The translations under genes were made by a program, and so were the position numbers. A stretch of 49,156 nucleotides of DNA from Chitinophagales bacterium (GTDB lineage Bacteria; Bacteroidota; Bacteroidia; Chitinophagales; JADJOU01), in NCBI GenBank assembly GCA_025455685.1, contig JALOMB010000012.1:1-49156 (forward strand), given 5' to 3'. Below are positions 28,778 through 32,782 of this stretch, one piece after another; the stretch's first letter is position 1, and every line of letters begins with the position of its first letter. The notes under the pieces are model-generated. The model was not told the DNA's origin. It worked only from the letters and a program-made list of their open reading frames with translations, and did not search any database.

Positions 28778-30271
28778 TTATTTCAGTAAAATTAAGCTTT
28801 GGTATGTCGTATCTCCCTTAAAACCTAACCTTTGGTATTGTCTTAGAAGTCCTGTGTCAGATTTGTCAAAAAGGATAGCTTCTAGTCCTTTTGATTTCAT
28901 ATAGTTGATGCTATTTTCATCAAGGTGTTTTTGAAAAACGCTCGTCCAGCCACCACGTTTAGCTAGGTATAAACCGACACAAGTGCTTTTGTCTTGTGGT
29001 AAAAGAATTTTAGCATCTCTAGACATAGGCAATTTATCCAAAAAAGTATCTAATCCACGGTATGTATTGTATTCATCATCCCAAGGATAAGAAGTGTCAT
29101 AGCGAAACATCACAATATTTCTCGTGTTTAAAATGGATTTTAGGAGCATTAATCCTATCAATACACCCATCCAAGGAAACTTTCTAATTGGCTTATGATG
29201 CAACCATAAACCAATAAGCCCTATCATCGGCACATAATATGGAATCAAACCATAGTCATGATCGTGATAATACTCAAAAAACATAATAAATAAACCCAAA
29301 TATAAGAAACTCATTATTATAAGCAAGATAGCACTAGATTTAGCTTTTTTCCAGAAGTAAATAATCGAAAAAATATGTGTTATGACCCATAAACAAAATA
29401 ATATATAAGAAGTAAACTCATGAAGCCATTTCACATGAAAAATATAACCGATTTCTAGAATCCTTGTCCAATCTAAAGTAAAAATCGATCGGAGTCGCAT
29501 CGTAAAATACATCGGCTCGTATTGTGTGCTATACCAGTGCGCATATACAATCCAACTTAACTCAATCAACCCAGAAAGCACCATAAGAATCAAAAAATTT
29601 CTTAACTTCGAAAGAGGATAGGCTCCTATGCACATCGAATATAATCTATATCCGAAATAGACCAATAGCGGAAAAGCGGTTATTGGTTTGAGTAAAAGAG
29701 CTAGGCTAAAAAAAATAAAAGCGAAAACTAAAAATTTATTATGTGACGAAAGCTCAAAATTTCGCCAAAACCAAAAGCCTACAATGCCTAAAGCGATACT
29801 ATGCGTGTCTGGAAAAAATATAAAGCCAAAATACACCCATAAATTCGCCCCAAACCACCAATTCGTCAGCAAAAATGCGGAAACTTTATCCTTCAAATAA
29901 CTCAAACTCAAACGATATAAGGCCAAATAGCCGAGTAACATCGTCACCACAGACAGAGCCCTAAGCCAATATATATCAAATTGACCTGAAATTTGACTTA
30001 GCTTAGCCGCAATAAAATAATAAATAGGAAATTCTCCGACTTGCATTCCTTGAGATCTCATTTCATTGAGAAATTTAGGCGTCCAGAAACTCAAATTTTC
30101 CTGATAATACCGATAAGCGATAGAAATTCCATCGGATTGCCGCCAGATGTGCTGCCCACAGATATCCGCATGTAGAAACCCAAAGCCACCATGTGTAAAT
30201 CCCATTAACAGCAAGAATACGACCACTAAGCCTATTGTTTCCCACCAAGTTGTCGATACTATCTTGTTCAT
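28778..30271 (-). CDS. Multi-pass membrane protein, ArnT-like glycosyltransferase fold
   Basis: About 497 residues with roughly ten hydrophobic segments and a short soluble C-terminus. An N-terminal loop with HADICGQHIWRQSDG resembles the D/E-x-H-x-WRQ signature of GT39/ArnT-like transferases that use polyprenyl-phosphate sugars. Bacteroidota have many such proteins of unknown substrate. I prefer the ATG at 30271, five bases after the methyltransferase stop; a TTG at 30304 would overlap that gene. It is the second gene of a two-gene unit with the SpoU methyltransferase. Confidence 0.75.
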   Translation of the reverse strand: MNKIVSTTWWETIGLVVVFLLLMGFTHGGFGFLHADICGQHIWRQSDGISIAYRYYQENLSFWTPKFLNEMRSQGMQVGEFPIYYFIAAKLSQISGQFDIYWLRALSVVTMLLGYLALYRLSLSYLKDKVSAFLLTNWWFGANLWVYFGFIFFPDTHSIALGIVGFWFWRNFELSSHNKFLVFAFIFFSLALLLKPITAFPLLVYFGYRLYSMCIGAYPLSKLRNFLILMVLSGLIELSWIVYAHWYSTQYEPMYFTMRLRSIFTLDWTRILEIGYIFHVKWLHEFTSYILFCLWVITHIFSIIYFWKKAKSSAILLIIMSFLYLGLFIMFFEYYHDHDYGLIPYYVPMIGLIGLWLHHKPIRKFPWMGVLIGLMLLKSILNTRNIVMFRYDTSYPWDDEYNTYRGLDTFLDKLPMSRDAKILLPQDKSTCVGLYLAKRGGWTSVFQKHLDENSINYMKSKGLEAILFDKSDTGLLRQYQRLGFKGDTTYQSLILLK

Positions 30272-30276
30272 TTCGA

Positions 30277-30810
30277 CTAAAAAGTAAATCTGAGAAAATG
30301 CCAACCCACGATACTAAAAGAATTAGAGACATTATAAGAATGTTTCATGCCTTTTTGGGGAATTTCGATGCATTGGTCTACGAGTTCGAGCCATTCGTCG
30401 CAAATGCCCATGACTTCATTGCCTAAGATGATCGCTATTTTAGTATTATTTGGCATTTCTATCTTGTTCAAAGGTATAGAATTTTTGGTTTGTTCGATAC
30501 CTAAAATAGCAAAGCCATCTCGTTTTAGCTTTTCATACATTACCTTAATCTCTGGAAAAAACTGGTAATTCACGCTTTTTTCTGCACCTAAAGCTGTTTT
30601 TTGAAGTTCTTTATGGTTGAGCGGTGTTTCAATTCCGTTGGCATAAATGGTTTTAATCCCGAAACAGTCTGCGGTTCGGAAAATTGAGCCTACATTATAG
30701 GCAGAGCGAATATGGTCTAGGATAACGGTGAAATTTGGATTAGCTTGCTGTGAATAGGTCTCAGCGTCGATTCTCAGAAGTTCATCCATGGTTTTTTTAG
30801 GAAATTGCAT
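30277..30810 (-). CDS. SpoU/TrmH-family RNA 2'-O-methyltransferase
   Basis: A 177-residue SPOUT methyltransferase. Motif 1 is NVGSIFRTADCFGI near residue 36, motif 2 AIILGNEVMGI near 128, and motif 3 IEIPQKGMKHSYNVSNSFSI near 150. These form the trefoil knot that binds SAM; the target is probably a tRNA or rRNA ribose 2'-OH. The final residues (VGWHFLRFTF) match the usual C-terminal helix only loosely. The base modified cannot be decided from sequence. Confidence 0.9.
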   Translation of the reverse strand: MQFPKKTMDELLRIDAETYSQQANPNFTVILDHIRSAYNVGSIFRTADCFGIKTIYANGIETPLNHKELQKTALGAEKSVNYQFFPEIKVMYEKLKRDGFAILGIEQTKNSIPLNKIEMPNNTKIAIILGNEVMGICDEWLELVDQCIEIPQKGMKHSYNVSNSFSIVGWHFLRFTF

Positions 30811-30859: not shown

Positions 30860-32491
30860 TCAAAAATCAATTTCTTGTATTTTCCATATAGCTTTAGCGT
30901 GTTTTGCCAAGTCTCTTTGTCTTGCCGCTAGTTTATCTTCATTCCATATATTGTAATTTTCATAAATTGATTTTGTGATTTCGCTTTGAGATTTTTTATA
31001 TAAATTTATCTTGTCATTATATGGTTTTTGGTCAGCCTCTCTATTTAATTTTTTTTCTAATAAAGTAAGATTTCCAACTCTGTAAATACAACGATTAATC
31101 TCTTCAAAAGTAAATTCTCCCCAAGTATAATCTGCATTTTCTGGCAAAATATGTTCTATAGTATATAAATCACTTTCAGGCTCAATTTCATTTTTAAATA
31201 GATAAAGTTCTATTTTTGACAAGATGTATTTCACTATTTTATGATTTCGGGTAGTGTTTTTAAACTCTTTGGTAGAAAAATCATTTTCAAAGTTTATATC
31301 ACTTACATAAATATTTTGAAAATCTAATATGGAAAAATCTTTTGTGGCAGCAATTTTTAAAGCTACTGTGTTGTAAACATCTTCTTGAGCATTAGGGTTG
31401 AGACCACCTATAATATTGTATCTAAAAGAAATAACTGAACAAATTTTAGCTAATTTTTTGAATTTATCAACTTCTAAATATCTAAGTGCAGCTATAAACA
31501 GAGAATAAGTCTGTCGTATTTGAAAAAGTTTTAATTCTTTTAAAGTTTTTCTGATTTCGGGTTTATCTTTCCAGATTTCATCTTCAGGATTTTGAATCGC
31601 TAAATAAATATCAGCGGTATCATTTAGATTTCTTATTAATTCGAAAACTTGGTCTTTTGTTTTTATGTTGTTTTTTATGGTTTTGAATAGATTTTTTTTA
31701 CCCACTGATTTATGGGTGCTGTTCCAGTAATATCGCAGATAATCTTCAACTTTTTGCTCGCCTAATTTGCCTACAATTTTACTCCAAATATTTTCTAGTT
31801 CTTCAATTTCTGAAATATGAGGCTTTGTTTCATCTACCACCGAAAATAAATAGTTTTTTAATAAATCAGATGAGGATAACTGAACGCCTCTGGCATTTAA
31901 GGTTTCAAACACTTTAAAGGCATTGAGTTGGTCCGTAACTTCAATTACTGTGAAAAACAATTTATCTACAATATTATCAATAAACGCCGCTAAACTTTCA
32001 CCCGTTTTAAATTCTTTTTTTATTCTATCATAATACCAATTAAAACATTCTCGCATATGTTTTTCAGAGGTATTGGTATTACGAAGTGGCAATTCTTTTA
32101 ATAATACCAAATGCTGTTTATAGTAATCATCGCTATTTCTGTTGAGTTTTAGTTTATTGTTTGAAATGAGCGTTACAGGATCTATATAGCCTATATAGCT
32201 ATTTAATAGACTATCTTTTCTTCTAAGGTTATTATCAGATTCAATACCATTATCCGCCAAGTCTTTTAAACATTTTAGGGTGGCAAGGATTAATAAACTC
32301 ATTGTTGTTAAATAACCCATATAATGTTCGCTTTCTTCATTAATGATTAATGCCTTAATATCTTGCCACAAATCGTCCCATTGCTCGGCTTCCCAAGTAT
32401 AATCTCGTTGAAATTTTGGTATTTCGTATCTAAGACCATTGCCCATCAATTGACGGTAGGTTTTATTAGAGGTGCCTTGTATGCCTTTCAT
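30860..32491 (-). CDS. GmrSD-like DUF262/DUF1524 protein lacking the DGQQR motif
   Basis: A 543-residue protein of the GmrSD/DUF262 type. The N-terminal DUF262 part has YRQLMGNGLRYEIPKFQRDY and, further on, AFKVFETLNARGVQLSSSDL; the C-terminal DUF1524 part has the HNH-like IEHILP near residue 445 and RVGNLTLLEKKLNREAD. In family members known to me, MGYL is followed by about 20 residues that include DGQQR, then TTMSLLIL. Here MGYL joins directly to TTMSLLILA near residue 61 (32306-32311). Frame is kept, so this is a clean in-frame deletion of the nucleotide-binding/hydrolysis motif. Related proteins restrict modified phage DNA; this copy is probably inactive or altered. No partner gene is adjacent. 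Confidence 0.85.
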   Translation of the reverse strand: MKGIQGTSNKTYRQLMGNGLRYEIPKFQRDYTWEAEQWDDLWQDIKALIINEESEHYMGYLTTMSLLILATLKCLKDLADNGIESDNNLRRKDSLLNSYIGYIDPVTLISNNKLKLNRNSDDYYKQHLVLLKELPLRNTNTSEKHMRECFNWYYDRIKKEFKTGESLAAFIDNIVDKLFFTVIEVTDQLNAFKVFETLNARGVQLSSSDLLKNYLFSVVDETKPHISEIEELENIWSKIVGKLGEQKVEDYLRYYWNSTHKSVGKKNLFKTIKNNIKTKDQVFELIRNLNDTADIYLAIQNPEDEIWKDKPEIRKTLKELKLFQIRQTYSLFIAALRYLEVDKFKKLAKICSVISFRYNIIGGLNPNAQEDVYNTVALKIAATKDFSILDFQNIYVSDINFENDFSTKEFKNTTRNHKIVKYILSKIELYLFKNEIEPESDLYTIEHILPENADYTWGEFTFEEINRCIYRVGNLTLLEKKLNREADQKPYNDKINLYKKSQSEITKSIYENYNIWNEDKLAARQRDLAKHAKAIWKIQEIDF

Positions 32492-32518: not shown

Positions 32519-32561
32519 TTAATTTATTATTATTACATGGTTTTAATTTATATATTACTTC

Positions 32562-32782
32562 TCACCCCTTCAAAAATCCATTTTCATATACCTTAGGTTC
32601 TATTTTTTTGGCAAGAATTTTTAGTTGGTCTCTCAAGTTTGTAATTAGGTGGTTATAAGTGATATCATTGCTTTTGGGGTTCATGCGACCCTTTTTAGTT
32701 ACGACCTTGAAAATGTTCTCTTGTATCGTAAACTAGCGTTTACATTTATATTGAATTCTTCTTGGATTTTGGAGTATTTCAT
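32562..32782 (-). pseudogene. Possible frameshifted small ORF upstream of the GmrSD-like gene
   Basis: An ATG at 32782 opens MKYSKIQEEFNINVNASLRY and soon stops; another frame continues FTIQENIFKVVTKKGRMNPK and then SNDITYNHLITNLRDQLKIL to a TGA at 32562-32564. The two parts look like one basic protein of about 65 residues broken by a frameshift. I do not recognise the family. This covers most of the 314-base gap between the GmrSD-like gene and the T9SS type B gene. Confidence 0.35.

Follow-up and report, generated by a model that had tools for sequence, protein, structure and literature searches.

A GmrSD-type gene of a Chitinophagales bacterium with an in-frame deletion of the DGQQR segment: probable recent inactivation of a stand-alone nuclease

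INTRODUCTION

When a GmrSD-like gene lacks the segment carrying DGQQR but keeps its reading frame, is it a natural variant, a form kept in use, an error of assembly or a defence gene that has been switched off? The question is raised by a gene at 30860-32491 (minus strand) of a 49156-nucleotide stretch of DNA from a Chitinophagales bacterium (GenBank assembly GCA_025455685.1, contig JALOMB010000012.1), the whole of which is referred to here as the window. In an intact enzyme of this type, the DGQQR NTPase of the ParB/Srx-like N-terminal domain would license or restrain the C-terminal HNH nuclease on foreign DNA, a role that we infer from SspE, DndI, BrxU and TgvAB. Its conservation among GmrSD sequences is nearly 100% (PMC4619093). 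An arginine-to-alanine exchange in the DGQQR of SspE abolishes both GTPase activity and defence (PMC13251355), and DGQQR substitutions abolish defence by TgvAB (PMC11411939). In DndI, DNA binding is restrained by the N-terminal domain, and the R87A exchange abolishes ATPase activity and significantly reduces defence, leaving a protein that still cleaves DNA but no longer distinguishes self DNA (PMC11662687). In addition, cleavage by BrxU is prevented by non-hydrolysable nucleotides (PMC8565348).

RESULTS

The gene belongs to the GmrSD family by descent

The gene is a single ORF of 543 residues, running from ATG to stop. Its product matches both Pfam domains of the family in the expected order and above the Pfam cut-offs, with PF03235 (GmrSD_N, DUF262) at an E-value of 7.6e-19 (69.0 bits; cut-off 33.2) and PF07510 (GmrSD_C, DUF1524) at 8.4e-29 (100.7 bits; cut-off 23), as well as the PADLOC models Orf5 (E 4e-199) and HEC-06 (E 1.9e-197). 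The PF03235 match is in two pieces, the better of which starts at residue 61 of the protein and position 68 of the profile, and its 69 bits compare with 130-131 bits in a single piece for intact homologues. By alignment and motif census, the remaining motifs of DUF262 are intact, namely the 'QR' motif FQRDY (32399-32413, minus strand) and the FxxxN motif FETLN (31895-31909, minus strand). The same is true of the E-H-N-N motif of the His-Me/HNH nuclease, for which EHILP (31142-31156, minus strand) supplies the catalytic E446 and H447, and N474 and N483 (31043-31072, minus strand), recognized from invariant columns and the census, form the conserved asparagine pair. The HNH-like C-terminus thus keeps its nuclease residues, in line with the preliminary description of this DNA, in which it looked intact and the frame unbroken. 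DGQQR itself has been deleted. Judged by sequence, then, the gene is a member of the GmrSD family by descent, yet it lacks one of the features by which the functional enzyme is defined.

A single deletion of 57 nucleotides removes DGQQR

Alignment of the gene with its seven closest relatives (70-79% DNA identity) revealed one internal gap of 57 nt, with all 57 of the gapped bases in one stretch, which is not a chance distribution; that the length is divisible by three is uninformative alone, being expected in one case in three. Compared with all relatives at both the DNA and the protein level, 19 codons including DGQQR are missing at codons L61-T62 (TTA|ACA; 32306-32311, minus strand), where the protein reads ...EHYMGYL|TTMSLLILA... 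Translation of the ORF thus bears out the direct joining of MGYL to TTMSLLILA given in the preliminary description, the junction coordinates are exact, and its estimate of about 20 missing residues comes to 19. In L032, an intact homologue, these residues are VLQTSNNKEFQIIDGQQRL. Protein identity to the closest relatives is 82-83% across the aligned stretch.

No notable repeats able to drive a deletion were found at the junction. The 57-bp loss may have arisen between short TTA repeats, but this mechanism is a guess, because the closest relative shows no more than 3 nt of microhomology at the junction and most of the others show none.

The deleted form is unique among the relatives sampled

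To place the deletion we gathered homologues from GTDB and from genomes related to that of the window. The resulting motif census comprised 67 distinct ORFs, of which several are incomplete or are pieces of a single gene, and covered about 60 proteins of the subfamily. DGQQR is present in every census ORF that covers the site, with the ORF of the window as the sole exception. More distant DUF262 proteins likewise keep the motif, and it is also present in the three further DUF262 proteins that the window's genome encodes. A fourth DUF262 fragment (L071; G000:C101:59-244) lies on a small contig of different-looking coding style and may be a binning contaminant.

A GmrSD subfamily that never had DGQQR at this place, which the preliminary description had named as a finding that would overturn it, was searched for in the census and not found; with the segment carried by all members covering the site and by the nearest relatives (82-83% aligned identity), and nothing found in its favour, this reading can be set aside as almost certainly wrong. 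The assembly contains no second allele, copy or fragment of the gene. In viral contigs we found neither relatives of the gene nor any match to a degenerate pattern of the junction, and a phage origin was rejected, phages giving only distant matches.

Lesions of other kinds do occur among the relatives. The homologue of Algibacter pacificus (L044:8001-9672) is split by a frameshift near residue 335 and both halves are otherwise well conserved; L105 and L117 lack the C-terminal part, L112 has an in-frame stop near residue 472, and L114 lacks its N-terminal part and contains a stop. A 577-residue homologue (L060, genome G421) has its catalytic histidine replaced by tyrosine (IEYILP for IEHILP) with DGQQR intact, a mirror image of the lesion in the window. 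Such independent lesions look frequent and suggest that the subfamily has repeatedly been lost or switched off by mutation, although some could be sequencing errors.

The deletion removes a predicted β-hairpin with the NTPase motif

In the structure model of L032 (83% aligned identity), the site consists of a strand (residues 56-64), a turn, a second strand (70-75) and a helix from residue 77. The deletion corresponds to residues 62-80 (equivalently 61-79). It cuts the first strand in half, eliminates the turn and the second strand completely, and takes DGQQR together with the beginning of the helix, so that the lost piece is, in this model, a β-hairpin together with the NTPase motif. In the model of the window protein a two-residue strand alone remains there, with pLDDT below 50 at residues 53-59. 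Because the underlying alignment holds 14 sequences, the N-terminal domain is weakly modelled in both cases, and the models serve as support rather than proof; the middle helical part and the nuclease domain are predicted with confidence in each.

A Foldseek search placed DndI (9jfl) as the top match of both models, with E-values of 1.0e-16 for the homologue and 1.0e-14 for the window protein. Matches to SspE were listed for the homologue (best E 2.8e-11) and none for the window model, a difference that fits a damaged N-terminal fold in the modelled protein. As the deletion takes half of a core strand, the turn, the next strand and the whole of DGQQR, the NTPase switch should be gone and the N-terminal fold damaged, with no useful defence left. 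The published data on SspE, TgvAB, DndI and BrxU lead by analogy to the same expectation, in that NTPase activity and most or all of the defence should have been lost, and any residual unrestrained nuclease would be expected to harm the host.

The remainder of the gene has not decayed

Synonymous sites are saturated even against the nearest relative, too far for dN/dS, and conservation was therefore judged from invariant columns. Of 203 positions that are otherwise invariant in a comparison with twelve relatives, the window protein is changed at one, as few as other copies are. When neutral mutation of the present gene was simulated to 0.005 substitutions per site, 24% of runs acquired no stop and at most one new change at an invariant position; this share fell to 3% at 0.010 (P 0.03) and to 0.3% at 0.015. 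If constraint on the protein ended with the deletion, the event therefore dates back less than about 0.01 neutral substitutions per site. The result is accounted for either by a young deletion or by continuing selection on the rest of the gene; youth needs no special assumption.

Genomic setting

The gene stands by itself, flanked by the genes of a SpoU-type methylase and of a protein with a T9SS signal domain, and in most relatives it likewise sits among unrelated genes. Its GC3 is 0.228, against 0.28-0.37 in 14 other genes of the window, and no match to it was found in five other genomes of its family. The low GC3, the absence from these genomes and the unrelated neighbours fit a (recent) horizontal acquisition of a single-gene defence element. 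In a comparison for an empty site, the flanking genes in family members were too diverged or not adjacent to define one.

Several features of the surroundings were also recorded. Upstream of the gene, the intergenic region holds an open frame (32560-32760, minus strand) that ends in NPKSNDITYNHLITNLRDQLKILAKKIEPKVYENGFLKG followed by a stop, has no Pfam match and may be a gene remnant. A 508-residue membrane-protein-like ORF (28778-30304, minus strand), also lacking a Pfam match, overlaps the end of the SpoU methylase ORF. At the closest GmrSD homologue (L032, L033:7702-8001, plus strand), a small gene of about 100 codons, helix-turn-helix-like and by eye XRE-like, ends on the homologue's start codon; unlike there, the window has no helix-turn-helix-like gene upstream.

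DISCUSSION

What was observed directly is a deletion found nowhere else in the sample, in a gene whose remainder is intact and undecayed. We consider that this is probably best explained by a horizontally acquired stand-alone GmrSD-type nuclease, of the HEC-06 or PADLOC 'Orf5' kind, that was recently inactivated by the in-frame loss of 57 bp, perhaps between short TTA repeats. The order of events would have been acquisition of the gene and then a small deletion, which presumably abolished NTPase and defence not long ago. Of the possibilities raised in the preliminary description, that of an inactivated or recently altered gene is supported, the lost motif being essential or nearly so in published mutants and the remainder undecayed. 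The kept frame and the absence of further lesions also fit a form still in use, and this weighs against inactivation.

Such a form, a protein kept by selection as a constitutive, NTP-independent nuclease or as one that interferes with intact DUF262 proteins, would agree with the intact nuclease residues and other motifs and with the behaviour of DndI, whose N-terminal domain restrains DNA binding and whose R87A protein cleaves without self discrimination (PMC11662687). It is known from one genome only, though, its lack of decay is accounted for by recency alone, and an unrestrained nuclease should poison its host. The other DUF262 proteins of the genome, one of them at 26% identity over part of its length and the others unmatched in a protein search, are distant and have DGQQR, hence they are unlikely partners or targets. 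The suggestion of the preliminary description that the gene was retained as a nuclease-only or dominant-negative form thus gained no positive evidence, a very recent event explaining the lack of decay equally well, and for a dominant-negative protein the genome offers no closely related intact copy to interfere with; we regard retention by selection as very improbable. Somewhat less remote, but still improbable, is an artefact of assembly or amplification, in which the gene of the cell would be intact and chimeric reads, the collapse of a variant or a minority allele would account for the junction. The assembly is indeed a draft (161 contigs, 86% completeness) and what remains of the gene resembles a functional copy. 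Against this, no contig could join the two sides of a 57-nt deletion across 3 nt or less of common sequence unless reads crossed the junction, so that ordinary repeat collapse does not yield it; the assembly, moreover, holds no second intact copy or fragment.

Within the preferred explanation of a recently inactivated gene, and as a possible cause rather than as an alternative to it, the break may have been adaptive because an active nuclease is costly, for example against a new plasmid or prophage. In Pseudomonas fluorescens SBW25, loss-of-function mutations in the gene of the DUF262-DUF1524 protein PFLU4242, deletions included, repeatedly relieve plasmid cost (PMC8544851, PMC11637435, PMC10062694); the independent lesions in L044, L060, L105, L117 and L112 point in the same direction. 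Yet drift of an unneeded accessory gene predicts identical lesions, and no relaxase of family PF03432 was found in the (incomplete) genome, so that we offer adaptive loss as a tentative idea, rather doubtful at present.

Among known systems, HEC-06 and PADLOC 'Orf5' are the closest, the window protein matching them over its full length and L032 matching the same models end to end; the window copy differs by the absence of 19 residues with DGQQR. HEC-06 has been described as functioning independently (PMC11411939). The type IV restriction enzymes GmrSD and BrxU share the order of DUF262 and DUF1524 and the QR, FxxxN and E-H-N-N motifs, and BrxU structures are among the Foldseek matches, but the window protein lacks their DGQQR and overall similarity is low, with 12-15% identity in the structural alignments. 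DndI and SspE are phosphorothioation-sensing DUF262-DUF1524 effectors, of which DndI is the best structural match of both models; the window protein differs in its missing DGQQR, and no Dnd or Ssp genes were recognized next to the gene. The single family tried, dndC (TIGR03183), gave no match in the genome, which is about 86% complete. PFLU4242, likened here by domain type, is a similarly loss-prone gene (PMC8544851), although there the loss was selected by plasmid carriage.

Taken alone, the allele of the window adds a single broken copy to a known type of defence gene, with some value as a deletion of DGQQR that arose naturally in an otherwise undamaged gene. Together with the lesions in its relatives, it suggests that this GmrSD subfamily is switched off repeatedly, as experiment shows for PFLU4242.
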